A DNA stretch of 64,000 nucleotides from Lachnospiraceae bacterium (GTDB lineage Bacteria > Bacillota > Clostridia > Lachnospirales > Lachnospiraceae). Location: the NCBI GenBank assembly GCA_029225065.1, contig JAQXVT010000073.1, positions 1-64,000 on the forward strand, in the 5' to 3' direction. Positions 174-62,082 of this stretch are shown piece after piece. Each line of letters starts with the position of its first letter. Position 1 is the first letter of the stretch. The notes under the pieces are model-generated. The model made no database searches and was not told where the DNA came from. It saw only the letters and a program-made list of their open reading frames with translations. The position numbers were made by a program, and so were the translations under genes.

Positions 174-210
174 TCAAGGCGGATATTCGCAGTCTGATTC
201 GCTGTCTGCG
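174..210 (-). repeat. Dispersed palindromic repeat, copy 1 (reverse orientation)
   Basis: This stretch is an imperfect reverse complement of the repeat that recurs between genes across the window (core AAGCGGATTGCGAATGTCCG). It reads as GCGGATATTCGCAGTCTGAT followed by TCGCTGTCTGCG. It lies between the upstream gene end and the fumarase alpha gene. Confidence 0.65.
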
Positions 211-219
211 TATAACCAT

Positions 220-248
220 CATGCAGGTAAGGCTGCCTTACCTGCATG
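220..248 (+). other. Perfect 13-bp hairpin upstream of fumarase alpha
   Basis: Positions 220-232 (CATGCAGGTAAGG) are exactly complementary to 236-248, leaving a 3-nt loop. No run of T follows, so it is not a textbook intrinsic terminator. It ends about 35 nt before the ribosome binding site at about 284-290. It could stabilise the fum mRNA 5' end or end transcription from the upstream gene; neither can be decided from sequence. Confidence 0.6.
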
Positions 249-298
249 ACCCGGTTAAAAACGCGCATGGTCTGCTGAACATGACAGGAGGAAAAGAA

Positions 299-1141
299 AT
301 GCGTGAAATCGAAGTGAGCATGCTCACGGATGCGATCGAGAAGCTCTGCATCGAGGCAAATGAGCATCTGCCGTCCGATGTCAGGGAGGCGATTAAATCG
401 TGCCGCGCCAGTGAGGACGGCGAGATCGCAAAGGGTGTGCTGGACAATATCATCGAAAATTTTGAGATTGCGGACAGGGAAAACGTGCCGATCTGTCAGG
501 ATACGGGAATGGCGTGTGTCTTTCTGGAAATCGGACAGGATGTACATTTCGTCGGCGGAGACCTGACGGATGCGATCAATGAGGGCGTGCGCAGAGGATA
601 TGACAAAGGGTATCTGCGCAAGTCTGTTGTAAAGGATCCGGTACGCCGCGGCAACACCGGAGACAACACACCGGCGATGATCTACACAGAGATCGTGCCG
701 GGTGAGCAGGTAAAGGTGACGGTCGGCCCGAAGGGCTTTGGAAGCGAAAACATGAGCGCGATCCGCATGTTCAAGCCGTCGGCCGGACTGCAGGGCATCA
801 AGGATTTTATCATTGAGACGGTAGAAAATGCAGGACCGAACCCGTGCCCGCCGATGGTAGTCGGTGTCGGCATCGGTGGAACGTTTGACAAGGCAGCGCT
901 GCTCGCAAAGAAGGCGCTGATGCGTCCGCTCGATTCCTCCAATCCGGATCCGTACTACGCAGATCTGGAGAAAGAGATGCTGGAGAAAATCAACCAGCTT
1001 GGCATCGGACCGCAGGGCTTTGGCGGAAGGACGACGGCGATCGGCCTCAACATCGAGACGATGCCGACACACATCGCAGGAATGCCGTGCGCGATCAATA
1101 TCAACTGCCATGTGACGCGTCATAAAACGGAGGTGATCTGA
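299..1141 (+). CDS. Class I (Fe-S) fumarate hydratase, alpha subunit
   Basis: The protein is 280 aa and belongs to the two-subunit, oxygen-sensitive class I fumarase / L-tartrate dehydratase alpha family, which interconverts fumarate and malate in the cytoplasm. Candidate 4Fe-4S ligands are Cys66 (ICQDTG), Cys183 (NPCPP) and Cys264 or Cys270 (GMPCAININC). Typical family motifs include GNTGDNTPA and GPQGFGGRTTA. I chose ATG 299 because AGGAGG at about 285-290 precedes it at good spacing; an earlier in-frame ATG at 125 would read through the repeat and hairpin. The beta subunit follows after one base, so the two form an operon. Tartrate dehydratase is the main alternative substrate assignment. 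Confidence 0.93.
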   Translation: MREIEVSMLTDAIEKLCIEANEHLPSDVREAIKSCRASEDGEIAKGVLDNIIENFEIADRENVPICQDTGMACVFLEIGQDVHFVGGDLTDAINEGVRRGYDKGYLRKSVVKDPVRRGNTGDNTPAMIYTEIVPGEQVKVTVGPKGFGSENMSAIRMFKPSAGLQGIKDFIIETVENAGPNPCPPMVVGVGIGGTFDKAALLAKKALMRPLDSSNPDPYYADLEKEMLEKINQLGIGPQGFGGRTTAIGLNIETMPTHIAGMPCAININCHVTRHKTEVI

Positions 1142-1142
1142 G

Positions 1143-1718
1143 ATGGAAGAGAAGAGAATCACACTTCCGCTGACCGCGGAGCTGGCAAAGACACTGCATG
1201 CAGGTGACCGGGTGCTTCTGACCGGCACAATCTACACCTCCCGTGATGCGGGCCACAAGAGAATGTGCGAGGCGCTGGCAAAGGGCGAGAAGATCCCGTT
1301 TGACCCGACGGATGCGACGATCTACTACGTGGGACCGACACCGGCAAAGCCGGGCCAGGTCATCGGATCGGCAGGACCGACAACGAGCGGACGTATGGAT
1401 GCTTACGCACCGACGATGATGTCGGTCGGCGCACGCGGCATGATCGGAAAGGGCGCACGTCTTCCGGAGGTTGTGGAAGCGATGAAGAAGTATTCCGGTG
1501 TCTATTTCGGAGCAATCGGCGGAGCAGGCGCACTGCTTGCAAAGTGCATCAAGAAATGTGAACTGATCGCATATGAGGATCTCGGCGCAGAGGCACTGCG
1601 TAAGCTCTATGTGGAGGATATGCCGCTGGTTGTCATCATCGACAGCGAGGGCAACAACCTGTACGAAGAGGGACGTGCGGCGTACCTGAAAGAGACGTCG
1701 GAAAAAGCTGAAAAGTAA
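1143..1718 (+). CDS. Class I fumarate hydratase, beta subunit
   Basis: The protein is 191 aa, the usual size for the separate C-terminal subunit of class I fumarase or tartrate dehydratase. It contains the conserved segments GDRVLLTGTIYTSRDAGHKR near the N-terminus, then GPTPAKPGQVIGSAGPTTSG and GAIGGAGALLAKC. It starts one base after the alpha stop codon, which implies translational coupling and a heteromeric enzyme. A hairpin with a short T-rich tail at 1858-1894 probably ends the operon. Whether the physiological substrate is fumarate or tartrate cannot be settled here; fumarate is the default in anaerobic Firmicutes. Confidence 0.93.
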   Translation: MEEKRITLPLTAELAKTLHAGDRVLLTGTIYTSRDAGHKRMCEALAKGEKIPFDPTDATIYYVGPTPAKPGQVIGSAGPTTSGRMDAYAPTMMSVGARGMIGKGARLPEVVEAMKKYSGVYFGAIGGAGALLAKCIKKCELIAYEDLGAEALRKLYVEDMPLVVIIDSEGNNLYEEGRAAYLKETSEKAEK

Positions 1719-1857
1719 GCAGAAGAACCTTTGTGCATCAGATGGCAGACGGATGGACGAATGGTCTCATGATTACAGACAGAATGAAGTGCCGGAGAAA
1801 ATTCGCCTGAGCAGTGCGGATAGAAGTCCGGGCATTAGAAAATAAATGAAATAAGAA

Positions 1858-1894
1858 AGAGCCAGTGAAACAGGACATTTGTTTCATTGGCTCT
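1858..1894 (+). terminator. Intrinsic terminator after the fumarase operon
   Basis: AGAGCCAGTGAAACA (1858-1872) pairs with TGTTTCATTGGCTCT (1880-1894), a 15-bp stem with one G-T pair and a 7-nt loop, followed by TGTTAT. It sits in the 332-bp gap between convergent genes. The rest of that gap holds a dispersed repeat and nothing else I recognise. Confidence 0.8.
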
Positions 1895-2007
1895 TGTTAT
1901 ATTCGGGGTAATTGCATAAATCATCTGAAGTGATGCATAAACAAGAAACAGCAAACTGCTGCTGTTTGTTTGGAAAATCTCATACGTAGAGATTATTCAT
2001 GATTCTG

Positions 2008-2045
2008 CAGGTAGCGAAGCAGATTGCGAATGTCCGCCTTCGCTG
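2008..2045 (+). repeat. Dispersed palindromic repeat, copy 2
   Basis: CAGGTAGCGAAGCAGATTGC followed by GAATGTCCGCCTTCGCTG matches the family consensus. It ends within a few bases of the stop codon of the convergent GGDEF gene at 2051. Confidence 0.7.
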
Positions 2046-2050
2046 AGAAA

Positions 2051-3961: not shown

Positions 3962-4072
3962 TTCAAGAGGCCTCGTTTCCTGTTCATTATAACTAAAAAA
4001 TATTATAACAAGCGCAGGTGGAATGTGCAACCTGTTTCTATGGAATATGTTTTTATGTAAGAAGAAGTTTTA

Positions 4073-4104
4073 AGTCGCAAAGCAGATTACGAATGTCTTT
4101 TTAA
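4073..4104 (+). repeat. Dispersed palindromic repeat, copy 3 (diverged)
   Basis: GCAAAGCAGATTACGAATGT followed by CTTTTTAAA matches the central part of the repeat family with several substitutions. It lies upstream of the GGDEF gene start and of the riboswitch promoter. The stretch 4105-4290 shows no other clear feature. Confidence 0.5.
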
Positions 4105-4291
4105 ATGTCCGTTTTACCTGGAACAGGAAGACACCTGGAATTGCTCACAGAAATGCGCTGACGCCCTCCTGCCGCGTGCTGCCGGATGGCACGGTGCGAG
4201 AGGTTTAATCATTCCCGCAATCTTCCAAACATGCTCCGGGAGAAAAAGAATCCCGGTAAGGCAGCAGGCATATCTTTTTAGAAGAAAGTGC

Positions 4292-4320
4292 TTGATTTAC
4301 GCGAAGAATGGGCGTATAAT
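4292..4320 (+). promoter_or_regulatory. Sigma-A-type promoter of the lysine-riboswitch operon
   Basis: TTGATT (4292-4297) and TATAAT (4315-4320) are separated by 17 bp. Transcription would start near 4327, just before the riboswitch aptamer. Confidence 0.85.
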
Positions 4321-4326
4321 AACGCC

Positions 4327-4580
4327 AATAAGAATCTGAGGTGCGTTTGACCAAGAGTAATTCGTCTCAGAAGCTGTTACAGACCAGCAGATGAAGGAAA
4401 GGGGTCGACGCCGAAGCGAAGGGGCTTCTGTAAGGCTTTGGTCGCTGGTCTGGCAGAGAAGATCTGTCCGACTGTCGCACGATCGGTGCGGAGCGCAGTT
4501 CTTCTGAAAAAAGAGAAATTTTTTTTGAGATATGACGCGCAGCCGTTCCGGAAACGAATGGCTGCGTTTCTTTGTGCTTA
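4327..4580 (+). promoter_or_regulatory. Lysine riboswitch (L-box) with downstream terminator
   Basis: The leader has the conserved L-box blocks in order: TGAGGTGCG (4337-4345), CAAGAGTAA, GAAAGGGGTCGACGCCGAAGC (about 4395-4415), TGTAAGGCT, GGTCTGGCA and a 3' segment ending GTTCTTCT. The P1 helix can form between AAGAAT near 4330 and GTTCTT near 4498. After the aptamer, CGCAGCCGTTC (4538-4548) pairs with GAATGGCTGCG (4556-4566) and is followed by TTTCTTT, an intrinsic terminator. In this family lysine binding favours termination, so the transporter downstream should be made when lysine is scarce. The identification comes from motif recall, not a covariance search. Confidence 0.88.
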
Positions 4581-4618
4581 TGGTTCTTATAGGAAGAAAA
4601 TATGAGGAGGAGCGGTAA

Positions 4619-6223
4619 ATGAAAAAGAGAATGGTAAATGTGCTTCTGGCATGTGCACTTGCAGCGGGAAGTGTCAGCCCGGCGATGTCGGCAATGGCAG
4701 AGGAAGCAGACGGCAAGGTACTCAATATTGCGCTGAGTGCAGATATTTCCACAATGGACGTTATGGGAACGAGTAAAGACTACATGGTTCCGATGAACGT
4801 ATTTGACCGTCTGTTCGATATTAAGGTAAACGATGACGGAAGCTCTGAAATCGTAAATGGTCTCTGCACGGATTATACAGTAAGCGACGACGGTCTGACC
4901 TACACCTTCACCTTAAGAGAAGGCGTAAAGTTCAGCAACGGACAGGATTTTACCGCGGAAGATGTAGAATATACCTTTATGCATCTGCTTTCCCCGGAAT
5001 CCATCAACGCAGATATCCCGCTTGAGATTGAGGGCGCACAGGATTACATGGACGGAAAGGCAGACACCGTTTCCGGCATTACGGTAGACGGTGATTATCA
5101 GATCAGTGTGACGCTGGCAAAGCCGAATGCAGGCTTTGTTTCCGAGCTTACTTCAGCAGTAGTTGGTATCATTGACAAAACGACGGTAGAGGGTGCTTCC
5201 AACTTCGGTATTGATGTAGATGAGACCGTTGGTACCGGTCCGTACATCGTAAAAGAGTGGATAAACAACGACCACATCACACTTGTCAAGAATGATAATT
5301 ACTGGGGCGAGGAGCCGTCCGTAGATACGTGTGTGATCCACGTTATTCCGGATGCTTCCACACAGAACCTGATGTATCAGAACGGTGAGCTTGATATCAT
5401 CGATCTGGATTTCCAGGATGCTTCGATTGTGACTTCGACCTATGAGACACAGTACGCAGACAAGATTGTTTCCGGAAAGCGTCTTGCACTGACTTACATG
5501 AACATGAATGCGAAGAGTGATTACCTCTCTGATCCGGTAGTCCGTGAGGCAATTCAGATGTCCATCGACCGTCAGGCGATCCTGGATTCCGTATACAGCG
5601 GAAAAGGACATCTTGAGAACAGCATCATTCCGCAGGGCGTTCTGGGACACAACGACAACGCAACCGAGATCGTTTACGATCCGGACGGCGCAAAGAAGCT
5701 GCTTGAGGATGCAGGCTACAAAGACGGAGAGATCACCTTTGAGATGGGCTATGATTCTTCCGCAAGCGCAAACAACCAGATGGTTTGCCAGATCATCCAG
5801 CAGCAGCTTGCAGCAGTTGGCATCAACATGGAAATCAAGACCTACGATCAGTCCAGCTGGCTGGCAACGAGAAAAGCAGGTGAGATGGATTCCTTTGTTG
5901 GTACCTGGACAATGGACTACAACGATCCGGCCAACATTCTGGGCACCTTCTTCGGAAGCGTAGAGAATACGGTACTTCGTTCTGACAACTATCAGGATAC
6001 TGCCATCATTGACCGCGTAGCAGCAGCTCCGTCTATCATTGATGATGATGAGCGTTACGCAGAGTACCAGGCACTGGAAGAGAAGATCATCCATGAGGAT
6101 TATTCCTGGGTTCCGCTCTTCGCACTGGATCATGAGTTTGCAATCAGTGATGCAGTAGAGAGCTACCAGCCGCACTGGGCAGGCTACGGCGACTTCTTCA
6201 TCAAAGATGTCGTTATGAAATAA
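4619..6223 (+). CDS. Peptide/amino-acid ABC transporter substrate-binding protein (SBP family 5)
   Basis: The protein is 534 aa with an N-terminal signal peptide (MKKRMVNVLLACALAAGS, likely cut after AMSAMA near residue 28) and an SBP_bac_5/OppA-DppA fold throughout. Typical motifs include NGLCTDYTVSDDGLTYTFTL and the GTGPYIVKEW segment. It would capture the ligand outside the membrane and deliver it to the permease pair encoded next. The only early Cys (residue 12) comes too soon for a normal lipobox, so the membrane anchor is unclear. It lies directly behind a lysine riboswitch, which suggests lysine, a lysine analogue or lysine-containing peptides as ligand; that is inference. A GC-rich hairpin at 6248-6283 separates it from the permeases and may favour higher SBP expression. 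Confidence 0.92.
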   Translation: MKKRMVNVLLACALAAGSVSPAMSAMAEEADGKVLNIALSADISTMDVMGTSKDYMVPMNVFDRLFDIKVNDDGSSEIVNGLCTDYTVSDDGLTYTFTLREGVKFSNGQDFTAEDVEYTFMHLLSPESINADIPLEIEGAQDYMDGKADTVSGITVDGDYQISVTLAKPNAGFVSELTSAVVGIIDKTTVEGASNFGIDVDETVGTGPYIVKEWINNDHITLVKNDNYWGEEPSVDTCVIHVIPDASTQNLMYQNGELDIIDLDFQDASIVTSTYETQYADKIVSGKRLALTYMNMNAKSDYLSDPVVREAIQMSIDRQAILDSVYSGKGHLENSIIPQGVLGHNDNATEIVYDPDGAKKLLEDAGYKDGEITFEMGYDSSASANNQMVCQIIQQQLAAVGINMEIKTYDQSSWLATRKAGEMDSFVGTWTMDYNDPANILGTFFGSVENTVLRSDNYQDTAIIDRVAAAPSIIDDDERYAEYQALEEKIIHEDYSWVPLFALDHEFAISDAVESYQPHWAGYGDFFIKDVVMK

Positions 6224-9233: not shown

Positions 9234-10185
9234 AGAAAAGAAAGTGCTGCTTCGGTGCGAGCACCTGGTAAAGGAATTTCCGGTAGACCGGAAGAGAAGC
9301 GTTCATGCCGTATCGGACATTGACCTTGAAATCTACGAGGGCGAATGCCTGGCACTGGTAGGAGAGAGCGGCTGCGGAAAATCGACACTTGGCCGGACAC
9401 TGATCCAGCTGCACAAGCCGACCTCCGGAGATGTGTGGTTTAAGGATGCAAAGATTTCCGGAATGAAAGCATCGGAGTTTGCACCGTACCGCAGACAGAT
9501 GCAGATGATTTTTCAGGATCCGTACGCATCGCTCGACCCGCGTATGAATGTGCATGATATCATCGCAGAGCCGCTTGTGACTTACAAGGTCTGTGCAAAT
9601 AAAGAAGAGCTGACGAAAAAGGTACTGGAGCTGATGGACGCGGTCGGCGTGCCGCGCGATTTCCTCTACCGTTATCCGCACCAGTTTTCCGGCGGACAGC
9701 GCCAGAGAATCGGAATCGCAAGAGCCATCGCGCTGCGTCCGTCACTTGTCATCTGTGACGAGCCGGTGTCCGCGCTGGACGTATCGGTACAGAGCCAGGT
9801 GCTCAACCTGCTCAAAGACATTCAGGCACAGTACGGTCTGACCTATCTGTTTATCAGCCATGACCTCTCTGTTGTCCGTTTTATTTCGAACCGTGTATGC
9901 GTCATGTTCCTCGGCAGGGTCTGCGAGATCGGTGATTCCGCGCTGATCTACGAGAAGCCGCTGCATCCGTACACGAAATTCCTGATGAATGCGATTCCGA
10001 TCGCGGACCCGCATTTAAGAGGAGAAGAAAAGACACTGCTCGAGGGCGAGCTTCCAAGCCCGATCAACCCGCCGAAGGGCTGCCGTTTCCACACCAGATG
10101 TCCGTACGCAACTGAGAAGTGCAGGACGGAGGAGCCGGCGCTTCGCGAAGTGGACGGACGAAAGGTAGCGTGCCACATGGCATAA
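9226..10185 (+). CDS. Peptide ABC transporter ATPase (DppF/OppF type)
   Basis: The protein is 319 aa. Walker A is GESGCGKSTLGR, the signature is FSGGQRQRIGIARA, and Walker B is LVICDEPVSALD. The oligo_HPY tail ends with RFHTRCPYATEKCRTEEP, again Cys-containing. I start it at ATG 9226 (MSEEKKVLL), which overlaps the end of the DppD-type gene; an in-frame ATG at 9175 lies deep in the previous gene. It completes the importer. Its stop codon lies inside the first of two tandem hairpin repeats that follow. Confidence 0.92.
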   Translation: MSEEKKVLLRCEHLVKEFPVDRKRSVHAVSDIDLEIYEGECLALVGESGCGKSTLGRTLIQLHKPTSGDVWFKDAKISGMKASEFAPYRRQMQMIFQDPYASLDPRMNVHDIIAEPLVTYKVCANKEELTKKVLELMDAVGVPRDFLYRYPHQFSGGQRQRIGIARAIALRPSLVICDEPVSALDVSVQSQVLNLLKDIQAQYGLTYLFISHDLSVVRFISNRVCVMFLGRVCEIGDSALIYEKPLHPYTKFLMNAIPIADPHLRGEEKTLLEGELPSPINPPKGCRFHTRCPYATEKCRTEEPALREVDGRKVACHMA

Positions 10186-10293
10186 GGAGGGACCCGCTTG
10201 CGGGGGGATCCCTTATGCCCGGTAGAGGCAGGCAGGGTATTTCATAAGGAGGGACCCGCTTGCGGGGGGATCCCTTATGCCCGGTAGAGGCAG
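10181..10293 (+). repeat. Tandem duplication of a 51-bp hairpin unit
   Basis: Positions 10181-10231 and 10243-10293 are identical over 51 bp. Each unit folds as CATAAGGAGGGACCCGC against GCGGGGGGATCCCTTATG, then carries CCGGTAGAGGCAG. The first unit includes the stop codon of the preceding ATPase gene. The spacer between units is 11 bp. Confidence 0.85.
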
Positions 10294-16916: not shown

Positions 16917-16931
16917 GAAGTTGTTTTTGAC

Positions 16932-16977
16932 CGAGTCAAGCAAGCAGCGAAGCGGATTGCGAATATCCGCTTTGACA
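16932..16977 (+). repeat. Dispersed palindromic repeat, copy 4
   Basis: This is one of the best copies: GAGTCAAGCAAGCAGCGAAG leads into CGGATTGCGAATATCCGCTT. The arms AAGCGGAT and ATCCGCTT form the central stem. It begins just after the stop codon at 16916. Confidence 0.8.
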
Positions 16978-16999
16978 GAATACTATATTTGTAGGTATG

Positions 17000-17039
17000 A
17001 GCAAGCAGTGAAAGTAAATTTCGAATGTTTGCTTTACAG
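17000..17039 (+). repeat. Dispersed palindromic repeat, copy 5 (diverged)
   Basis: GCAAGCAGTGAAAGTAAATT followed by TCGAATGTTTGCTTTACAG aligns with the family along its whole length but with several changes, which weakens the stem. Confidence 0.6.
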
Positions 17040-17107: not shown

Positions 17108-17120
17108 CACTGCGTTCATG

Positions 17121-17157
17121 AGCAAGTAGCGAAGTGGATTGCGAATGTCTGCTTTAT
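17121..17157 (+). repeat. Dispersed palindromic repeat, copy 6
   Basis: AGCAAGTAGCGAAGTGGATT followed by GCGAATGTCTGCTTTAT matches the family; it is followed by CCGAGCCAGGCAAC, a flank shared with other copies. The gap 16917-17382 thus holds three copies plus a terminator and no gene. Confidence 0.75.
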
Positions 17158-18588: not shown

Positions 18589-18629
18589 GAGCGAAGCGGA
18601 TATTCGTAATCCGCTTCGCTGCTCGGTCA
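18589..18629 (-). repeat. Dispersed palindromic repeat, copy 7 (reverse orientation)
   Basis: GAGCGAAGCGGATATTCGTA followed by ATCCGCTTCGCTGCTCGGTCA is a near-perfect inverted repeat; the stem extends to GAGCGAAGCGGAT against ATCCGCTTCGCT. It is preceded by ATTCAGA, reminiscent of the MITE ends. The rest of the 369-bp gap before the NYN gene shows only a possible TATAAT box at 18428-18433. Confidence 0.8.
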
Positions 18630-18693
18630 AAGAATAGCGGAAAAAGAATCGTGGAAAAATCAGTGGCAGGGACAAAAGAAATGGAGGAATCTT

Positions 18694-20979: not shown

Positions 20980-21059
20980 GAATGCGGACAGTGGCGCATG
21001 GGGCCTTATGACGTTGGTGGATAGTCGGAACACGATCTGAAGTGCAGAAAAATGAGTCA

Positions 21060-21095
21060 GAACGGATAGTCGCAATCCGCTTCGCTGCTCGGTTA
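21060..21095 (-). repeat. Dispersed palindromic repeat, copy 8 (reverse orientation)
   Basis: GAACGGATAGTCGCAATCCG followed by CTTCGCTGCTCGGTTA matches the reverse complement of the family consensus. It lies between the convergent MATE and MalY-type genes. Confidence 0.7.
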
Positions 21096-21140
21096 AAATA
21101 AGCATGGCGAAAGGGTATACGTAAAAAATAGCAGAAAAGA

Positions 21141-22455: not shown

Positions 22456-22597
22456 GTTACTGTTCAGAACCCACCTCCAAAATGCTTCGCATTTCGTCGG
22501 TGTGGCGTATCCGCCAGGCAAAATTTTAAAAGTGTAATTAAAAATGCAAGCATTTTACGCATGTTTAATGAAATTTTGCCTGGCTCTGAACAGTAAC
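22456..22597. mobile_element. MITE-like element with 13-bp terminal inverted repeats and 8-bp target duplication
   Basis: GTTACTGTTCAGA (22456-22468) is exactly inverted at 22585-22597. The element is flanked on both sides by ATATTATA (22448-22455 and 22598-22605), a candidate target-site duplication. Inside, GCCAGGCAAAATTT (22513-22526) pairs perfectly with 22571-22584. At 142 bp it encodes nothing and would need a transposase in trans. It lies 5' of the MalY-type gene and of the trp promoter. Confidence 0.8.
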
Positions 22598-22732
22598 ATA
22601 TTATACCGCAGAAACAGAAAAATGTAACCGTCTGGCAGGATATTTCAGGCAGGTGTTTTGGAAAACAGAAGAAATTGGAAGGCGAAGAGAAAGGGTTAAT
22701 GAAAGAAAGTAAAAAAAATTGAAAAAAGATGG

Positions 22733-34338: not shown

Positions 34339-34414
34339 AAACTATATATAAGACTTTATAATAGGAAGAAACACATTCCAAAATTGTTCGGAACATCAGA
34401 AAGGGGAGGATTTG

Positions 34415-37400
34415 ATGAACAAGGGATTTAAAAGAATAGCGGCCTCTTTTCTGTCCGCAGCGATGCTGTTTCAGCAGTGTGCGGTGACAGGTATCGCAGA
34501 GGAGCAGGAAGGATCAGAGGTGCAAACGCAGGCGGCAGAGACACAGGCGCCGGAAGCACAGGCACAGGCTGAAACGCAGGCATCGGAGACGCAGGCGCCG
34601 GAAGCACAGGCACAGGCGGAGACGCAGGTGTCAGAAACGCAGGCACCGGAGACGCAAGCACCAGAAACCCAGGCGGCAGAGACGCAAGCGCCAGAAACAC
34701 AGGCCCCAGAGACTCAGGCCCCAACAGAGTCAGAAACGCAGGCGCCGGAGACTCAGGCCTCAACAGAGCCGGAAACGCAGGTGCCGGAGACTCAGGCCCC
34801 GACAGAGCCAGAAACGCAGGCCTCGACGGAAAATGAGACGCAGGCACCAACGGAAACAGAGACGCAGGCCCCGACGGAAACCGAGACGCAGGCGCAGACA
34901 GAAACTGAAACGCAGCAGGAAACGGAAACAGAGACTGAGAAGATCACAGAGACGGAGCGGCAGACAGAGCGTTCCGAGCGTGTCAACGATGGTGATAAGA
35001 TCGAGCTTTCAACCTTGAGACAGGGACTGCAGGGTGCGTTTCCGTATCTTTTTGCAGCGCAGGAGGTAAAGGGAGCCTCTTCCCTTGCAAAAGAAGAGCA
35101 GATTGCAGACGGTGATAAGGGCCGTGCAGCACTTTTCGGACTGGAAAATCTCTCAGAAAAGCTGGCAGACGGAAAATCTACTTCAAAAGTACGTGTAATC
35201 AACGTATATGCGGATAAGGACGGAAAGCTTGACACAAAACAGCTTAAGGACGCTTTCCAAAGCGAGACAATTGATGTGACAAACCAGTATGTGGTTGTCA
35301 ATGTAATTGCAGATCAGAAAGATCAGAAGATTGATTTTTCAGGTTATACGATGGTAAATGCAGACCAGACGGTCCGCTATACCGAGGAAACACAGCCGGG
35401 TGATATCCTTTACAACTTTGCATGGCTGGACGGCGAGAATTTTGCTCCGTTTGAAGGCACGGTGACACTGACCGGCACGGAACTTCTGCAGGGTACGTTT
35501 TTAGCACCGGAGGGCGACGTTGAGGTGAAGTCAAATCTGGCCGGTGCTGTTTATGCGGATCAGATTACGGTGGCAGATGGCGTTTCCGATCTGAAGCGGA
35601 TTGTTCTGATAGAAGGTGCAAAAAAATCAGAGACAGAAAGCACAGACGAAACCAGCAGCGAGCCGGAGACCACATTTGAGACGACGGTCGAGAGCGAAAC
35701 AGAAACCGCATCTGAATCGGCAGCCGAGAACGAGTCAGAAACCGTATCGGAGACGACAGCCGAGAGCGAGCCGGAAACCGTAGCTGAAACAACAGCCGGA
35801 AGCGAGACAGAAATTGCATCCGAGTCTGCAGCTGAGAGTGAGTCGGAAACCGTATCCGAGACGACAGCTGATAGCGAAACAGAAACCGCAGCTGAGACTG
35901 AAGAAAACGATATGATCGCAATTGATGCGAATCTTGTTTCAACGTATTCTTTCTTCAGTACGAGAATCATCTCATCGTGGAATTCAGAAGAGGGTACGGA
36001 GCTGAAAATTAAGCTGACGGATGCCGAAGACGAAGCAGAGCAGGCACTTGCAGGAGGCGAGGCAGTCGTCCGCGCGGCGGATTCGATTTATGATAAAGAA
36101 GGTGCGCTTGTTTTCCGGAAAAACGCTGAGGTGGCAACGCTTAACTGGAAGAAAGCAACGGAAGTATCTGCAAAATTCCATTACAGCGGTTCTTACTATC
36201 TCGAAGTAACAAAGACGCCTGCTGTTTCAAATGGAGAAGAAGCATATATGCTTCCGTCCCGCATTTATTTCTACATTGATGCAGATGGAGTGCCTGTTTT
36301 TGCAGAAAACGAAAGCTGGTATACCTGGAAGGACAGCGTTCTTTCGATCGATCTGGCAAAAACAGAAAAGGTACAGGTGAAGCTGCGGCTGACGGGACAG
36401 AAAGCAGATGGAAAAAGTGACGGAGAGCTGCTTTCCGGTGCAGCGTTTGTTCTGAAAAATGAGGATGGCCAGATTATTCGGGACGAGGAAGGATATCCGA
36501 AATACTATATCAGTTTTAACGGCGAGGAAGTCAGCTTAAGCGGTCTGGAAGCAGGCACGTATCTGCTTTCGGAGATCACCGCACCGGATGGATACCAGCC
36601 GGCAGCTGATAAGAAATTTACGATCGCATCCGATACAGCGACCCCGGTCGAACTGGTTGTAACGAATGCAAAGACATCATCCAATACAGAGACACTGGAA
36701 TTTACAGCAATCAGTATGTTTGATGAGACAGTGCTGACCTCTGAGTTTGAAAATTATTACTATGCGGCACTGTTCCAGGACAAAGCACTGAAGAAAAAAG
36801 TCAGCGATGTCATTATGCTGACCTATTCAGAAGGTGAAAAGAAAACAGAAAGTACAGAACTTTCCGGCATAGCGGTTGGTACGTATTATCTTGCACCGAC
36901 GGATGAGTTTGGTGAGCCGGTGAGCGATGCTTCTTTCCAGATGGTACAAAGCGGCGAGACACCGAAAGAAAATCAGAACTATACTGTTCTGAAGGTGAAA
37001 AAGACCGAGACATCGCAGACAGAAGAAACACAGACCGAGAAAACGGATTCATCAAAAACAGAAGTAGCACTGGAGTATCAGTATACCGAATACCCGTCCG
37101 ATGATTTCAGTTATGAGGCAGCCATTACGCTCACAAAGCAGGTAAAAAATTACGACGGAAAAGCGAAAAAAGTAACGGAAGACTTTTACGCCATGCTTTA
37201 TGCGGACGCAGAGCATGAAGAAGCGCTTCTGGAAGAGCCGGTAAAATTTGAGTTAAAGGATGCATCCTCTGTAAAGACTACCGTAAAAGTAAGCATGACA
37301 GAAAGCGGCGTACCAATCTGGATCGCAGAGACCGACAAGGATGGAAACGTTATTACTTCGGATAATGAAGACTTTGTGTATGCAATCACCTATCCAAAGC

Positions 37401-39067
37401 ATGCAGATGGTAAGTTTACTGTGATTTGCGGCAAGGAGACCGTGGGCACGATACAGAACCAGCTGAACAACTCGATTGTGAAGATCAGAGTGGAAGATGG
37501 AAGTAAAAAACTTCTTCCAGGCGCAAAGCTTGTCCTGAAAAATCAGAAGACGGGAGAGGTCGTGCCGATCGATCAGAAAGCAGTCTTTGAGTCAACCGGT
37601 GAAGAGCTGGTACTGGAAAATCAGCTGGAAAACGGTACAAACTATGTCCTGACCGAGCTGACTGCACCGGACGGATATCAAAATACAGCTGATGAGACGT
37701 TCACTGCGCAGGAAGGAAAAACGGTAGAGGTTGTTCTGACGAACCAGAAGACAAAAGGCAGCCATACACTGACTGTTATGAAGACCGTGTACAGCGGCGA
37801 TCATCAGGTATATGCGCAGGATCTGTCTTCCGGAACGTATGCACAGGAAGGCTGTTATACATTCTATGCTGCGCTCTATGCAGATGCAAAGCGGACCGAA
37901 AAGGTGAGCGATGTCAAAGAGATTAAAGTCAGCGGTCTGACCGGAACGACCTCATTTGGCAAGTTGGAAAGCGGTACCTACTATCTGGCAGAGACGGATC
38001 AGTACGGAACTGTGGTCAAAAGTGATAGGAAATGCACTATAAAGTATACGGATGCAGGAAAGATTCAGGTGACAGGAACGAATACAGCGGAGATCCAGAA
38101 TGTATATTCTGAGCTTCCGAGAGGATATCGTTATACGGCGACGCTGACAATCACTAAGAAGCTGCAGAATTCCGCCGGTGAGGCAGAAGCGGCATCGAAG
38201 ACCTTTTATGCAGGAATTTACCGCACACAGGATTACAGTGATACGCCGACCATTATTCCGATTACGCTGAACAATGCTTCGGAGGCATCGGAGCGCAGAA
38301 GAATCCTGCTTCCGGGCACGGATGATCTGACCTACTACATTGCAGAGGTCAATGAACAGGGACAGCGGATGACAGAAAATTCTGAGTTCGGCTATATACC
38401 AACCATTGATCAGCCGGAGCTGGCAGTGAAAAAGGGGGAGGATGCAAGCGTGACAATCACCAATAAGACAAAAGTCTCAAAGGTAACCCTGTACCTGACC
38501 AAGAAGGTATATAAAGGAAACTCACAGTACGCAGTCAACGAGACATTCTACGCAGGACTGTTTAAGGATTCGGAGTTCACGCAGCTGTATGCAAATCCGA
38601 TTCCGATGCAGATGAATGGCAAGAGTGAGCTGACCCTGAAGCTGACCTTAAATCTCGGTTCATCATCAGACGCAAAGATTTATATTGCTGAGGTCGACAA
38701 AAACGGAAAAATCGCCAAGAGCAGTAAAGAGTTTGGTTACGATATCCGTGTAGTAAACGCAACGGCGTCCTTCAGCCAGGATCGTACAGAAGTACAGACG
38801 ATATTGCTGAATGCGGTTTACGGTACGACAAGCGATGAGGACTGGAACAACATTGAGAATAAGGATGACAACAACATCGACGGTGACGACGGAGGAAGCG
38901 GCATTTCCTCAAATGGAAGCGGCGGCTACGGCGGAAGCGGTACCGGAAGTGATGTTGCAACAGGTGATGAGACACCGGTACTTCCGTATGTGGCAGTGCT
39001 TGCGGTATCTGCGCTTGTAATTCTTGGACTGGTGTTCACATCAAAGAAAAAGAAACGCAGAAAATAG
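34415..39067 (+). CDS. Large surface adhesin-like protein with SpaA-type domains and cell-wall sorting-like C-terminus
   Basis: The protein is 1550 aa. A signal peptide (KRIAASFLSAAMLFQQCAV) leads to a low-complexity ETQAPETQA-type stretch (about 30-190), an uncharacterised region (190-400), a second Glu/Ser/Thr-rich stretch (about 402-495), and a long tail of beta modules. Two are SpaA/Cna-B-like: about 652-745 with ITAPDGYQPAAD and about 1018-1108 with LTAPDGYQNTAD. Five related modules, each with an FYA-L/I-Y/F strand and an IAE- or LAETD-type motif, lie at about 758-860, 895-1008, 1115-1228, 1235-1348 and 1355-1461. A Gly/Asp-rich linker precedes VATGDETPVLP, a membrane helix and KKKKRRK. 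The last part looks like a non-LPXTG sorting signal. It probably binds host or bacterial surfaces. ATG 34415 follows GGGGAGGA. Confidence 0.85.
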   Translation: MNKGFKRIAASFLSAAMLFQQCAVTGIAEEQEGSEVQTQAAETQAPEAQAQAETQASETQAPEAQAQAETQVSETQAPETQAPETQAAETQAPETQAPETQAPTESETQAPETQASTEPETQVPETQAPTEPETQASTENETQAPTETETQAPTETETQAQTETETQQETETETEKITETERQTERSERVNDGDKIELSTLRQGLQGAFPYLFAAQEVKGASSLAKEEQIADGDKGRAALFGLENLSEKLADGKSTSKVRVINVYADKDGKLDTKQLKDAFQSETIDVTNQYVVVNVIADQKDQKIDFSGYTMVNADQTVRYTEETQPGDILYNFAWLDGENFAPFEGTVTLTGTELLQGTFLAPEGDVEVKSNLAGAVYADQITVADGVSDLKRIVLIEGAKKSETESTDETSSEPETTFETTVESETETASESAAENESETVSETTAESEPETVAETTAGSETEIASESAAESESETVSETTADSETETAAETEENDMIAIDANLVSTYSFFSTRIISSWNSEEGTELKIKLTDAEDEAEQALAGGEAVVRAADSIYDKEGALVFRKNAEVATLNWKKATEVSAKFHYSGSYYLEVTKTPAVSNGEEAYMLPSRIYFYIDADGVPVFAENESWYTWKDSVLSIDLAKTEKVQVKLRLTGQKADGKSDGELLSGAAFVLKNEDGQIIRDEEGYPKYYISFNGEEVSLSGLEAGTYLLSEITAPDGYQPAADKKFTIASDTATPVELVVTNAKTSSNTETLEFTAISMFDETVLTSEFENYYYAALFQDKALKKKVSDVIMLTYSEGEKKTESTELSGIAVGTYYLAPTDEFGEPVSDASFQMVQSGETPKENQNYTVLKVKKTETSQTEETQTEKTDSSKTEVALEYQYTEYPSDDFSYEAAITLTKQVKNYDGKAKKVTEDFYAMLYADAEHEEALLEEPVKFELKDASSVKTTVKVSMTESGVPIWIAETDKDGNVITSDNEDFVYAITYPKHADGKFTVICGKETVGTIQNQLNNSIVKIRVEDGSKKLLPGAKLVLKNQKTGEVVPIDQKAVFESTGEELVLENQLENGTNYVLTELTAPDGYQNTADETFTAQEGKTVEVVLTNQKTKGSHTLTVMKTVYSGDHQVYAQDLSSGTYAQEGCYTFYAALYADAKRTEKVSDVKEIKVSGLTGTTSFGKLESGTYYLAETDQYGTVVKSDRKCTIKYTDAGKIQVTGTNTAEIQNVYSELPRGYRYTATLTITKKLQNSAGEAEAASKTFYAGIYRTQDYSDTPTIIPITLNNASEASERRRILLPGTDDLTYYIAEVNEQGQRMTENSEFGYIPTIDQPELAVKKGEDASVTITNKTKVSKVTLYLTKKVYKGNSQYAVNETFYAGLFKDSEFTQLYANPIPMQMNGKSELTLKLTLNLGSSSDAKIYIAEVDKNGKIAKSSKEFGYDIRVVNATASFSQDRTEVQTILLNAVYGTTSDEDWNNIENKDDNNIDGDDGGSGISSNGSGGYGGSGTGSDVATGDETPVLPYVAVLAVSALVILGLVFTSKKKKRRK

Positions 39068-39103: not shown

Positions 39104-39152
39104 AAACACCTTCGCAAAAACGCATCAAAGCGGGAAGCGGAGGTGTTTTTTT
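39104..39152 (+). terminator. Terminator after the surface-protein gene
   Basis: AAACACCTTCGC (39104-39115) pairs with GCGGAGGTGTTT (39137-39148), one mismatch, followed by TTTT. A MITE-like element starts immediately after at 39153. Confidence 0.8.
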
Positions 39153-39258
39153 GTTACTGTTCAGAGCCAGGCAAAATTTCATAAAATAAGCGTAAAATGC
39201 GTAGCATTTTGAACGCAGGTTGCGAATGTCCTCGTTACAGTGCTGCTCTGAACAGGGA
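39153..39258. mobile_element. Second MITE-like element, carrying a dispersed palindromic repeat (copy 9)
   Basis: It opens with GTTACTGTTCAGAGCCAGGC and matches the reverse complement of the 22456-22597 element for roughly the first 60 bp. Its right end CTCTGAACAG (39246-39255) is partly degraded after that point, and no target duplication is clear. Its centre (39211-39239) reads GAACGCAGGTTGCGAATGTC, the core of the dispersed palindromic family. Confidence 0.65.
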
Positions 39259-46526: not shown

Positions 46527-46703
46527 TATATAAGCAATTCGAATTTGCTGTAAAATGGATTTATCAGGATACGAACGTATGTTTTGAATTAAAAAAAACG
46601 TACAGAAACTCATTTTTTTCAGACACATTCTCCACTTTAATGAAAAATATGGTATAGTGTAGGAAATGCATGACGGTGAATCGAAAATAAAAAGACGGTT
46701 TTT

Positions 46704-46731
46704 TGAAAGCGGATTGCGAATGTCTTTTTTA
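46704..46731 (+). repeat. Dispersed palindromic repeat, copy 10
   Basis: TGAAAGCGGATTGCGAATGT followed by CTTTTTTA is a good core copy with altered 3' arm; AAAAAGAC at 46690-46697 can pair with GTCTTTTT. It marks the left side of the decayed lanthipeptide patch. The rest of 46527-46905 holds a possible TATAGT box (46653-46658) and the GGGAGG site of the next gene remnant. Confidence 0.65.
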
Positions 46732-46905
46732 CTGTATGCCGCAAAGCGACATGAGACAATCAGGCAGAATAACAGAAATGGTTTGCTGATAACAGAGCAC
46801 ATTTTGCGCAGCTGGTATGCACATTCTGGCTGACCGTTTTGCCGGAAAAACGCAGAAGAAAGACGGCAAATACAATCGCCGCCTTTCGGGGGGGAGGAGT
46901 TACAG

Positions 46906-52153: not shown

Positions 52154-52170
52154 CGAAGTTTTACAAATAA

Positions 52171-52196
52171 CGGAGTGGATTGAGAATGTTTACGTT
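52171..52196 (+). repeat. Dispersed palindromic repeat, copy 11 (degenerate)
   Basis: CGGAGTGGATTGAGAATGTT followed by TACGTT shares the central GGATTG-GAATGT pattern only. It could be a decayed copy. Confidence 0.35.
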
Positions 52197-53235: not shown

Positions 53236-54114
53236 ATGGGAAGAGTAGCGATTGTAACAGACAGCAACAGCGGTATTACACAGGCGCAGGCCGGAGAGCT
53301 TGGAATTCACGTTATTCCGATGCCGTTTTATATTAATGGAAAACTGTATTATGAGGATCTGACTCTGTCACAGGAGGAATTCTATCAGCATTTAAGCGAG
53401 AAAGCGGAGATTTCAACCTCGATGCCGGCGATGCCGGATGTGACCGGGCTTTGGGATAAGCTTCTGAAAACATATGACGCGGTGGTACATATCCCAATGT
53501 CAAGCGGACTGAGCAGCTCCTGCCAGACCGCACAGATGCTGGCGCAGGATTACGACGGACGCGTGCAGGTGGTTGATAATAAGCGGATTTCCGTGACACA
53601 GCGTCAGGCGGCGCTGGATGCAGAGGCTTTGGCACAGGCTGGATGGAGTGCAGAAAAGATCAAGGCGTATTTGGAGGAGACAGCGATGACCTCCAGTATT
53701 TATATCACACTGTCTACCTTATATTATCTGAAGAAAGGCGGACGCATCACACCGGCTGCGGCTGCACTTGGTACTTTGCTTCGTTTAAAGCCGGTGCTTC
53801 AGATTCAGGGTGAGCGGCTGGATGCGTATGCGAAGAGCCGGACACTGAAGGCTGCGAAGAGTGCGATGATCGAAGCCATCCGAAAAGATTGTGTGGAGCG
53901 CTTTGGAAGTGACGAGCAGGCGACAGGCATGGATATCATGATTGCGTATTCCGGTACGGATATGACGGAGGTCAATCAGTGGGAGCAGGAGGTGCGCGAA
54001 GCATTTCCGGGACATGATGAGATTATTGTAAATCCGCTGTCCTTAAGCGTATCCTGCCACATCGGACCGGGCGCGATTGCAGTGACGTGCTCGAAGAAGC
54101 TGGAGGAGATTTAA
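53236..54114 (+). CDS. DegV-family fatty-acid-binding protein
   Basis: The protein is 292 aa with the DegV/FakB fold. In Gram-positive bacteria FakB proteins hold a fatty acid while FakA phosphorylates it for entry to phospholipid synthesis. Motifs are IVTDSNSGIT at the start, STSMPAMPDV, HIPMSSGLSSSCQTAQML and YLKKGGRITPAAAALGTLL; the fatty-acid carboxylate usually contacts Ser/Thr in the TSMP segment and a His, here probably in CHIGPGAI. No fakA gene is next to it. CCGGAGG precedes ATG 53236, and the gene has its own promoter. Confidence 0.92.
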   Translation: MGRVAIVTDSNSGITQAQAGELGIHVIPMPFYINGKLYYEDLTLSQEEFYQHLSEKAEISTSMPAMPDVTGLWDKLLKTYDAVVHIPMSSGLSSSCQTAQMLAQDYDGRVQVVDNKRISVTQRQAALDAEALAQAGWSAEKIKAYLEETAMTSSIYITLSTLYYLKKGGRITPAAAALGTLLRLKPVLQIQGERLDAYAKSRTLKAAKSAMIEAIRKDCVERFGSDEQATGMDIMIAYSGTDMTEVNQWEQEVREAFPGHDEIIVNPLSLSVSCHIGPGAIAVTCSKKLEEI

Positions 54115-54118
54115 CCAA

Positions 54119-54170
54119 GCCAGGCAGCGAAGCAAATTGCGAATATCCGCTTTGATTCGAGTCAGGCAAG
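54119..54170 (+). repeat. Dispersed palindromic repeat, copy 12
   Basis: The unit begins four bases after the DegV stop: GCCAGGCAGCGAAGCAAATT then GCGAATATCCGCTTTGATTC, followed by the shared flank GAGTCAGGCAAG. It is one of the longer copies. Confidence 0.8.
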
Positions 54171-56700: not shown

Positions 56701-56706
56701 AGAAGA

Positions 56707-57040
56707 TAGTGAATAACTGGCTATTGGCATCTTTGATAACAGCCGGAAGCCGGAAAAAACGCAAACTCAGTGAAAAAGAGAGTACCCATCTGGAAATGCT
56801 ACAGAGAATTCCTGTTTGGTGAGAGGGAAGACACAGAAGGATAGGGAAGATGGCTTTTGAGGGGCGTATCTGAGCCGGAGGGTTAGGGTACGACAGGACC
56901 GCCTGTTACAGCGGAAGGGTAAGAGGGAGAGCTCCCAAAGCACCCGCAGAGGTCTGCATCGCAAGAGGCAGATGAAAAGAAGTGGTACCACGGTCCGTCC
57001 GTCTTCTATATTATAAAAAGAAGACAGGCGGTTTTTTTAA
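56707..57040 (+). promoter_or_regulatory. T-box leader of metG (probable methionine specifier)
   Basis: The T-box bulge AGAAGTGGTACCACGG lies at about 56979-56994. The terminator pairs CCGTCCGTCTTCT (from about 56995) with AGAAGACAGGCGG (to about 57031), followed by TTTTTTT. An ATG in GGAAATGCTACAG near 56793-56805 is a candidate specifier for tRNA-Met, but I cannot prove it is in the specifier loop. The leader would raise metG expression when tRNA-Met is uncharged. The upstream part 56495-56671 shows nothing recognisable. Confidence 0.85.
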
Positions 57041-57042
57041 CC

Positions 57043-57095
57043 GAATCCAAGCAGCGAAGCGGGTTGCGAATGTCCGCTTTGTCTCGAATCAAGCA
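57043..57095 (+). repeat. Dispersed palindromic repeat, copy 13, inside the metG leader
   Basis: AATCCAAGCAGCGAAGCGGG then TTGCGAATGTCCGCTTTGTC, followed by TCGAATCAAGCAAGC, is a near-complete copy. It lies between the T-box terminator and the metG ribosome binding site (GGAGG at about 57114-57118), so it is part of every full-length metG transcript. Confidence 0.85.
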
Positions 57096-57125
57096 AGCAA
57101 CGACCATAGATTGGAGGAAAACAAA

Positions 57126-59114: not shown

Positions 59115-59118
59115 TTTT

Positions 59119-60486: not shown

Positions 60487-60499
60487 AGGAGGAACAGAT

Positions 60500-61894
60500 A
60501 TGAAAGAAAATGCATGGCTGTCCTACAGCGAGGAGCAGAAAGCAGAGCTGGAAGCCCTGGCAGGACGCTATAGAAAATTTCTGGACGCAGGAAAAACAGA
60601 GCGTGAGTGTGCGGCGGAAGCCATTCGCCTTGCACGTGCAGCTGGCTATGTGAGCCTGGAGGAAGTGCAGGAAGCAGGCAAAAAGCTTGAGCCGGGCGAT
60701 AAGGTTTACGCCTGCGGCATGAAGAAGATGCTGGTGCTGTTCCAGATCGGAAAGCAGCCGCTGGAAAATGGTATGCGCATTCTTGGCGCGCACATCGATT
60801 CCCCGCGCCTTGACCTGAAGCAGAATCCGATGTATGAGGACACGGAGCTGGCTTACCTGGATACGCATTATTACGGCGGCGTCAAGAAATATCAGTGGGT
60901 GACGATTCCGCTTGCCATCCACGGTGTTGTGGCAAAGAAAGACGGCAGCGTGGTTGAAATTTCGATCGGTGAGAAAGAGGATGATCCGGTTGTATTCATC
61001 TCTGACCTGCTGATTCATCTGGCTGCTGAGCAGATGGAGAAGAAGGCAAAGGTTGTGATCGAGGGAGAGAATCTCGATATCCTGGTAGGCAGCCGCCCGA
61101 TTTCAGAAAAAGATGAGACTGGAAAGACACAGAAGGATGCGGTAAAGGCAAACATTCTCGCAATCCTGAAAGAACAGTACGGCATGGAGGAGGAGGATTT
61201 CCTCTCCGCAGAGCTTGAGATCGTGCCGGCTGCAAAGGCACGCGACTGCGGACTGGATCGCAGCATGATCATGGCTTACGGCCAGGATGACCGCGTGTGC
61301 GCGTATACTTCCCTGGAGGCACAGCTGGATGTGCCGGTGCAGGAGCGCACAACCTGCTGCCTGCTGGTGGACAAGGAAGAGATCGGAAGCGTCGGAGCGA
61401 CCGGTATGCGCTCTCATTTCTTTGAGAATACCGTCGCAGAGCTGATGGAGTGCGCGGGAGATTACAGCGAGCTGAAGCTGAGAAGATGCTTAAGCCGCAG
61501 CCGCATGCTCTCTTCCGACGTAAGCGCCGCGTACGATCCGCTCTTTGCATCCTGCTTTGAGAAGCGCAACAGCGCATACTTTGGACACGGACTCGTATTC
61601 AATAAATACACCGGTTCCAGAGGAAAGGGCAGCAGCAACGACGCGAATGCAGAGTACATCGCGGCAATCCGTGAGATGATGGATAAGCACGGCGTTGCAT
61701 TCCAGACCGCAGAGCTTGGCAAGATCGATGTGGGCGGCGGCGGAACGATCGCATATATCACGGCACTTTATGGCATGGAGGTTATCGACAGCGGCGTGGC
61801 AGTGCTGAACATGCACGCACCGCAGGAGGTAACGAGCAAGACGGATGTCTACGAGGCGTACCGCGGATACTGTGCATTTTTGCAGGAGGCATAA
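60500..61894 (+). CDS. M18-family aminopeptidase
   Basis: The protein is 464 aa and belongs to the M18 zinc aminopeptidases (aspartyl aminopeptidase / aminopeptidase I group). Metal-ligand segments include GAHIDSPRLDLK, with the first His, and LLVDKEEIGSVGATG, with the bridging Glu, then SSDVSAAYDP and VDVGG-type KIDVGGGGTIAYI. It releases N-terminal, often acidic, residues from peptides in the cytoplasm. There is no signal peptide. AAGGAGGAAC precedes ATG 60500. It probably shares a transcript with metG and the MATE gene and ends at the terminator at 61995. Confidence 0.92.
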   Translation: MKENAWLSYSEEQKAELEALAGRYRKFLDAGKTERECAAEAIRLARAAGYVSLEEVQEAGKKLEPGDKVYACGMKKMLVLFQIGKQPLENGMRILGAHIDSPRLDLKQNPMYEDTELAYLDTHYYGGVKKYQWVTIPLAIHGVVAKKDGSVVEISIGEKEDDPVVFISDLLIHLAAEQMEKKAKVVIEGENLDILVGSRPISEKDETGKTQKDAVKANILAILKEQYGMEEEDFLSAELEIVPAAKARDCGLDRSMIMAYGQDDRVCAYTSLEAQLDVPVQERTTCCLLVDKEEIGSVGATGMRSHFFENTVAELMECAGDYSELKLRRCLSRSRMLSSDVSAAYDPLFASCFEKRNSAYFGHGLVFNKYTGSRGKGSSNDANAEYIAAIREMMDKHGVAFQTAELGKIDVGGGGTIAYITALYGMEVIDSGVAVLNMHAPQEVTSKTDVYEAYRGYCAFLQEA

Positions 61895-61994
61895 AATACG
61901 AAAATAAATGTGCCGATGTGGGGCAAATAGCCGGATCAATGCGGCGAAAGCGGAAACGCGAAGATTTAGCTGAAAAGGTGAACACAGAGGAAAG

Positions 61995-62028
61995 AGGCAG
62001 GATATCGAAGCGGGTATCCTGCCTTTTC
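61995..62028 (+). terminator. Terminator after the aminopeptidase gene
   Basis: AGGCAGGATA (61995-62004) pairs with TATCCTGCCT (62015-62024), followed by TTTCT. The rest of the 423-bp gap before plsY holds a degenerate repeat and a promoter; short frames near 62070-62220 are not convincing genes. Confidence 0.85.
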
Positions 62029-62051
62029 TGCGCTTGACGGGAAATAAAGAA

Positions 62052-62082
62052 AGGAAAGCGGTTTGCGAATGTCAGTTTTATT
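62052..62082 (+). repeat. Dispersed palindromic repeat, copy 14 (degenerate)
   Basis: AGGAAAGCGGTTTGCGAATG followed by TCAGTTTTAT keeps the core but has lost the right arm. Confidence 0.5.

Follow-up and report, generated by a model that had tools for sequence, protein, structure and literature searches.

A dispersed hairpin-forming repeat family of Lachnospiraceae and its possible origin from gene-less miniature elements that move as single-stranded DNA

The window analyzed here is a stretch of 64,000 nucleotides (nt) of one contig (C73) from the 3.18 Mb genome of a Lachnospiraceae bacterium (hereafter the source genome, G000), which carries copies of a dispersed repeat between its genes. 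A preliminary description of this DNA had presented the repeat as a palindromic unit of 35–50 bp and listed 14 places for it. A related sequence is indeed found at each of these places, in some cases heavily decayed, but the unit itself has to be redrawn: the complete element is about 158 nt long, and the palindrome makes up no more than a portion of its right end. The copies in the window are decayed, short, or internally deleted versions of this full-length element, which comes in two subfamilies, the first with the target TTTAA and an internal complement GTTA, and the second with the target TTTGAA and the complement GTTCA. They are listed below with carets marking the junction between target and element and, for some, scores from a weight matrix trained on 67 source-genome copies (threshold in the window, 14). 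The copies that we call degenerate are those placed at 4073, 46704, 52171, and 62052 in the preliminary description.

173..261 (-): first-subfamily (TTTAA) copy, internally shortened, with the left end TTTTTAA^CCGGGTC at 241–261 and the right end at 173–202
2007..2040 (+): right-end module resembling the second subfamily; left end not recognized
4075..4105 (+): right-end module, degenerate, score 23.9
16923..16976 (+): first-subfamily short copy, its left end (after TTTTTGA) joined to an intact right end
16996..17037 (+): second-subfamily right-end module, decayed, under the matrix threshold
17108..17156 (+): second-subfamily right end with the 3' arm of helix P1 and the guide (CTGCGTTCA)
18590..18633 (-): first-subfamily short copy after CTTTGA, the one earlier credited with a 12-bp stem
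21056..21099 (-): first-subfamily short copy, left end TTTTAA^CCGAG
39207..39238 (+): probable extreme deletion derivative, with the left end TTTTGAA^CGCAG against the last part of the right end; under the matrix threshold
46699..46732 (+): degenerate copy with TTTTTTGAA to its left, score 22.4
52168..52196 (+): right-end module, weak and degenerate, score 16.2
54109..54170 (+): first-subfamily short copy after ATTTAA, with an extra CGAGTCAGGCAAG flank
57036..57083 (+): first-subfamily short copy after TTTAA, in the T-tract of an apparent terminator
62049..62081 (+): right-end module, degenerate, score 29.2

Judging from their letters, the copy at 39207 probably arose by a deletion that brought its left end against the closing stretch of the core, and that at 17000 reads as a decayed second-subfamily copy.

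The family is real. Its 20-base core AAGCGGATTGCGAATGTCCG, with up to three mismatches allowed, has nine matches in the window (100 shuffles average 0.03 and never exceed 1) and 173 matches in the whole genome (87 forward and 86 reverse), where a reversed control pattern has 0. The weight matrix recovers 12 window copies above its threshold, a score not reached in Markov-shuffled DNA, as well as 59 copies in 464 kb of the source genome. In 864 kb it recovers 118, and five Markov versions of that DNA yield 0. The 864 kb scan covers 27% of the genome, with a matrix partly trained on that same DNA, and extrapolates to about 430 copies genome-wide. Chance repeats are ruled out by the shuffle, reversed-pattern, and Markov controls, and the family is confirmed as the dispersed, high-copy, hairpin-forming one that the preliminary description had seen in it. 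The density of one copy per 4.5 kb noted there makes the window richer in copies than the sampled source genome, which averages about one per 7.3 kb. The claim that copies always lie between genes holds well, with 2 of the 118 copies in the 864 kb inside genes predicted by a home-made gene finder, as against 99 expected at random; the copy at 174 was scored within an open reading frame (ORF) in one gene analysis and outside genes in another.

In aligned copies conservation extends to the left of the palindrome, with GAGCAAGTAGCG followed by AAGCGGATTGCGAATRTCCGCTT and then GAC or ACA. The left end is TTTAACCGA(A/G)TC in many copies and TTTGAACGCAG in others. The length from left to right end, target included, falls at 40–79 nt in 56 copies, at 160–169 nt in 42, and between or above these ranges in 25, and a further 120 right ends in this survey had no recognized left end. 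The long form measures 163 nt with its target in a copy on a phage contig (L225) and in one from another genome of the order (L231 of G156), giving an element of 157–158 nt. It is predicted to fold into four helices round a junction, with P1 closing P2, P3, and P4, plus the conserved core and right-end hairpin; the fold z-scores of two full-length elements are -7.3 and -5.8 as RNA and -7.1 and -7.0 as DNA. The L225 copy (5165–5327, minus strand of this viral contig) lies within a coding frame, and the element thus probably reaches phages. Variant elements are seen at about 4516, 4803, and 6216 of the locus L082, with a right end of ...ATATCC followed by TTGACA or similar and without the CGCTT arm; the left end TTTATAAAAGG of the first is matched by CTTTTATA, and this variant possibly represents a third target class.

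The insertion site was delineated by a 94-nt insert of the element that interrupts a tnpA (Y1_Tnp) gene in the locus L211. Four uninterrupted homologs (L189, L210, L199, and L191) read ...TTTGAA^TGTGG..., and L211 reads TTTGAA^CGCAG...(94 nt)...TTTAC^TGTGG, which shows that the element begins with C, ends with TTTAC, and has neither duplicated nor removed its target at that site. Insertion without target duplication directly after a fixed short target, a feature of the IS200/IS605 type, is hence seen at one site. The phage copy fits the other class (TTTAA^CCGAA), and no close uninterrupted relative was found in the collection searched. For the relation between target and guide, we took 33 copies that have the linker GTTA or GTTCA and a P2 motif and whose left end fits (T/C)T(AA or GAA)C, complementarity not being required. 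Target class and guide class agree in all 33 (21 AA with GTTA, 12 GAA with GTTCA, and 0 crossed), and standard pairs fill 146 of the 165 cells for pairs 2–6 of P1, whereas shuffling the arms 200 times gives 92 on average and never more than 111. This helix crosses the insertion point, so that the final bases of the target find their complement within the element.

The covariation check proposed in the preliminary description thus has a divided outcome, failing for the short AAGCGGAT/ATCCGCTT hairpin and succeeding for the long-range helix of full-length elements. In 321 distinct right ends the arms AAGCGGAT and ATCCGCTT pair, per pair, about as often as expected from independent columns, which speaks against compensatory change in them and suggests that single copies are not kept for the short hairpin. 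In the 150 copies that keep the linker, another possible pairing within the core, TAT.GA.GCAA with TTGC.GA.ATA, shows covariation at two positions. Structure would seem to be maintained in the spreading lineage and not in the single copy, as a mobile element would show. The P4 loops are cGNAg in 19 of the 33 copies and cGATAg in three more, and the core contains GCGAAGC in many source-genome copies and GCGAAAGC in some other genomes. Mini-hairpins of the GCGAAGC and cGNAg types are extraordinarily stable as DNA, and the evidence of the P4 loop and core hairpin types leans toward DNA rather than RNA. This mini-hairpin class is described in the passages available from PMC10527192, in which the sequence GCGAAGC itself does not occur. 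We also considered a hammerhead-like reading of TGAG...CGAA and rejected it, as the remainder of the catalytic core of such ribozymes is absent.

Both orientations occur, as reported earlier, but unequally, with the leading direction favored. Relative to GC skew, 90 of the 118 source-genome copies are leading and 28 lagging; tiles of eight other genomes have 52 leading versus 3 lagging, and named loci of at least 5 kb have 94 versus 13 (three loci of unclear skew excluded). Given that the genes of the source genome are also mainly leading (596 of 679), the informative sites are those at which the neighboring genes are neutral or opposed. At convergent, divergent, and head-on sites the counts are 22 leading versus 7 lagging in the source genome and 41 versus 7 elsewhere (tiles and named loci, copies scoring above 20), i.e., a pooled 63 versus 14 with GC skew as the proxy for the fork. 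Such a bias with the fork is again a feature of the IS200/IS605 type. According to passages of PMC6006769, Y1 transposons insert into the lagging-strand template, and such insertion would give the orientation pattern seen here. That the orientation follows the skew-defined leading direction even beside neutral or opposed genes suggests that the element transposes as single-stranded DNA through a trans-acting enzyme.

Scans of the whole genome and of related genomes, as called for in the preliminary description, place the family far beyond its 173 core matches at home. Among 60 genomes (the source included; 36 of the genus), the congeners G019 and G002 are dense in the core, with 75 and 32 matches, and the others apart from the source genome have at most 3. 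Across 392 genomes of the order the core (up to two mismatches) is present in 34, with 24–155 matches in six (G000, G156, G219, G315, G377, and G385) and at most 5 in the rest. Genomes of named species have at least 112 stretches with a match, most with titles naming Lachnospiraceae or genera assigned to it and a few with wider labels; Eubacterium ramulus, Blautia, Hespellia, Roseburia hominis, and Anaerocolumna are among the matches listed. A plasmid collection had no match to one full-length element. In six syntenic intervals read by eye, none of 7 copies is at a shared site between the source genome and G019, and in the closer pair of E. ramulus and the metagenome-assembled genome SUG297 one of two compared sites is shared and one is not, the intergenic DNA being too diverged for an empty site to be read.

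The preliminary description knew of no described family with this sequence. A described relative does exist, namely the Clostridiales-1 RNA (Rfam RF01699; Weinberg et al., 2010, PMC2864571). The RF01699 gathering score is reached neither in the window, where a lysine riboswitch is the only match, nor by any element in ten loci; a weak match of 23.7 bits overlaps an element in L015, and in L231 one at gathering level precedes an element by about 240 bases, on its upstream side. Matches with E of at most 0.001 are found in 16 of 19 genomes, up to 63 in one, with only 87 of the first-look candidates scored in three of the genomes. The shared core hairpin TGAG...CGAA is present in 26 of 30 RF01699 loci (taking the best-paired match per locus, with L297 being an element of the present family and L280 scored on the wrong stretch). 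Its four-base stem is fully paired in 22 of these 26, in six forms (GGAA/TTCC, GCAT/ATGC, GGAT/ATCC, GAAA/TTTC, GCAA/TTGC, and GTAT/ATAC). On the source contig itself, 20.9 kb beyond the window, a Clostridiales-1 match of 47.1 bits against a gathering score of 48 (L281, G000:C73:84874-85016) carries TGAGCAAGAAGCGAAGCGGATTGCGAA, one base off the core of the window family. The core is likely shared by ancestry between the two families, to go by their sequences. The Clostridiales-1 copies are evenly split by strand (15 leading versus 14 lagging among 29). The RF01699 loci (L268–L293 and others; genomes G156, G002, and G003) form a dispersed multi-copy family, which would suit an element better than one individual RNA gene.

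The family is, in sum, real, mobile-like, and old; it is not a bare repetitive extragenic palindromic (REP) sequence, and it works like a single-strand transposon whose enzyme is elsewhere. We favor, at somewhat better than an even chance, the reading that these repeats are relics of gene-less miniature mobile elements of Lachnospiraceae, mobilized in single-stranded form by a trans-acting enzyme, with the target read through a guide in the element. The intact element would fold as a single strand into the four-way junction plus the right-end core, and the enzyme would cut and join this single strand on the lagging-strand template. The enzyme would read the target via TAA^C/GTTA or TGAA^C/GTTCA pairing at the foot of P1. 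Most source-genome copies would afterwards have lost their middle through internal deletion and decay, with no selection on the single copy. A Y1/HUH-type enzyme fits this behavior best, though no such gene with matching ends was found. A broader version, in which Lachnospiraceae harbor a whole superfamily including Clostridiales-1 of gene-less, junction-folding, self-guided, and fork-riding elements, whose enzyme is neither of the RAYT nor of the IS200 type, is more doubtful, and we offer it tentatively.

Several observations count against the favored reading, beginning with the search for the enzyme. The source genome has one Y1_Tnp gene, which reads as IS200/IS605-type and whose 3.4-kb locus has no match to the core at up to four mismatches, so that the linkage to a RAYT suggested in the preliminary description was not found. 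No Y1_Tnp was found in G002, and no match to the TnpB C-terminal domain in the source genome. Other genomes tested have 0 to 8 Y1_Tnp matches; Y1 genes can occur in genomes with 0 or 1 core matches and one genome with 5 has none, and Y1 presence alone therefore does not explain the spread. In 29 Y1 loci from other genomes the only copy found by the matrix is that interrupting tnpA in L211, to which blastn adds a left-end match in the Y1 locus L184; a RAYT gene flanked by repeats, the hallmark of GTAG-type REPs, is seen neither in the Y1 locus of the source genome nor in these 29. A tblastn search with the source-genome Y1 protein revealed no Y1 gene in the named loci searched, and blastn of two full-length elements against Y1 and TnpB loci revealed no autonomous copy with tnpA between the same ends. 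The latter search matched L211, L184/L242 (one place), L243, L246, and L264, and gave one 15-nt match in L239. Apart from that in L239, these blastn matches read as copies in or near such genes and not as their ends, and a tnpA or tnpB sharing the ends of the element was rejected as a candidate. Y2_Tnp (PF04986) occurs in two of 13 genomes (G375 and G417, with 1 and 0 core matches) and in none of the dense genomes tested (G002 not among them), leaving IS91/Helitron-type mobilization unsupported. Finally, when the genes lying up to 3 kb from 154 copies are clustered, the 20 largest groups, as judged by reading and with no family search, represent broad families and include no recurrent transposase. 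It is from the want of a linked mobilizer that action in trans is inferred, and because the linked-enzyme feature was looked for and not found, we have not filed the family under RAYT-REP or IS200/IS605.

The remaining points of this kind concern the ends, the fork, and a possible RNA. The clean empty site is a single one, and the first-subfamily window copies at 16923 and 18590 follow TTTGA and not TTTAA. The selection used for P1 would miss other left-end classes, with 204 right ends having no canonical linker, and the 33 copies in that comparison are related to one another rather than independent. GC skew is a proxy for the direction of replication; 28 of the 118 source-genome copies oppose it, and the bias in this genome is weaker than in the others. 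The core is shared with a family that was predicted as an RNA and lacks strand preference, which leaves room for an RNA-level role or intermediate.

Two alternatives take up this last point. One is movement through an RNA copy, i.e., retrotransposition in the manner of SINEs or group II introns, with the Clostridiales-1 core bound by a reverse transcriptase or its partner. The core does belong to a predicted RNA family with compensatory changes, the clean insertion without duplication and the internal guide pairing with a 5' target recall intron homing, and retroelements such as group II introns can also use lagging-strand DNA. Nevertheless, we consider it unlikely, with no linked reverse transcriptase in the 20 largest neighbor clusters as judged by reading (no search for reverse transcriptase families was run), and the predominance of cGNAg in the P4 loops (19 of 33), a type that is extraordinarily stable in DNA, also speaks against it. 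The other would have the repeats be conserved RNA elements acting in cis or trans (transcription end, mRNA stability, or small RNA), selected in place and not mobile. Strong folding, an intergenic location often after stop codons, the small-RNA label of the Rfam relative, and the one of two sites shared between two close genomes are what such elements would be expected to show. That this accounts for the family is nonetheless quite improbable in light of the absence of shared sites in the six intervals between the source genome and G019, the short-hairpin arms without compensation, the copy that disrupts a tnpA gene, and the orientation that tracks skew even beside neutral or opposed genes.

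Other enzymes acting on folded DNA have also to be weighed. A REP signature of GT[AG]G placed 0–2 nt before a hairpin is given in PMC6006769, and many copies have precisely this arrangement before a hairpin of at least 7 bp (GTAG-CG-AAGCGGAT...ATCCGCTT), the consensus of many copies having GTAG two bases before the right-end stem. Together with the intergenic location, the high copy number, and an orientation that suits a single-strand mechanism, this would accord with GTAG-tagged REP elements moved by a RAYT (TnpA-REP) transposase. That GTAG, however, belongs to a wider core TGAGNAAGTAGC...GCGGATTNCGAA also present in some Clostridiales-1 copies, the intact elements are of about 158 nt with a fixed target and are not single hairpins, and the sole Y1_Tnp match of the source genome is, as read, of the IS200/IS605 type, in a locus free of copies. 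The 2013 GTAG-repeat survey (PMC3733652), in the portions available, deals with Proteobacteria, Cyanobacteria, Chloroflexi, and the PVC phyla without the word Firmicutes, which likewise disfavors this assignment, and we hold it to be rather unlikely. Least plausible is that the repeats are akin to attC sites and are mobilized by a tyrosine recombinase, that of an integron or another, which acts on folded single strands. The AA^C junction beside the GTT complement at the foot of the folded strand does resemble attC boxes, but the second subfamily with TGAAC/GTTCA misfits the attC consensus and the empty site is AA^T and not AA^C, making this explanation highly improbable.

Other features of the window include two identical direct repeats of 51 nt at 10181–10293, each starting with the palindrome CATAAGGAGGGACCCGCTTGCGGGGGGATCCCTTATG. 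Palindromes similar to it precede several right ends elsewhere in the genome, and the 51-nt repeats may therefore be a second palindromic repeat family. A third may be represented by an inverted pair of 49 nt (22550–22598 and 39152–39200), 94% complementary and with TGTTCAGAGCCAGGCA, whose second arm is immediately to the left of the 39207 copy. The lysine riboswitch (RF00168, 86.1 bits) is at 4328–4506 on the plus strand, upstream of an ORF at 4619–6223. An ORF of 1551 amino acids at 34412–39067 contains tandem repeats close to its beginning and a 36-nt repeat farther along, and perhaps encodes a repetitive surface protein.

We found no description of the family in the open-licence PubMed Central literature, as covered by titles, starts of abstracts, and passages, which is not proof of absence. 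Common gut bacteria gain a REP-like mobile family with ends, target, and polarity defined to a level that can be tested at the bench. The pairing of target and guide predicts that a few base changes in the element would shift its landing site, and the copies could mark strain history and the direction of replication. Further, a listed small-RNA family would belong to a dispersed element-like group, which changes how hits to RF01699 should be read.

Among known systems, Clostridiales-1 shares with the element the core form TGAGNNA...CGAA, compensatory stem changes, and in some copies a nearly letter-for-letter resemblance. It is also of similar length (166 positions in RF01699) and dispersed in the same bacterial family, and its model retrieved the element L297 of G219 (limit E 0.001; own row not listed). 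It differs in that this core belongs to an inner hairpin within a molecule of another architecture, and in having no strand preference. The likeness to REPs drawn in the preliminary description is apt as to behavior, the family being dispersed, intergenic, high-copy, and hairpin-forming; it is thus partly right, and membership in RAYT-REP is unsupported. With the GTAG REPs and REPINs of RAYT systems the element has in common the high copy number, intergenic location, hairpin with a 5' GTAG, and single-strand behavior, and it is unlike them in its length of about 158 nt, four-way junction, fixed target, GTAG within a larger core, and in that a RAYT was not found. Other palindromic modules before several source-genome right ends recall BIME mosaics, although a regular alternation of inverted units is not established for these repeats. 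To IS200/IS605 elements (IS608, ISDra2) and their miniatures it is similar in that it inserts 3' of a short fixed target without duplicating it, has structured ends, is oriented by the lagging-strand template, and has its target read by a guide within the element. It is distinguished from them by having no internal tnpA or tnpB, by the lack of any autonomous copy with these ends among those found, and by a target helix that runs on into the left end of the element itself.

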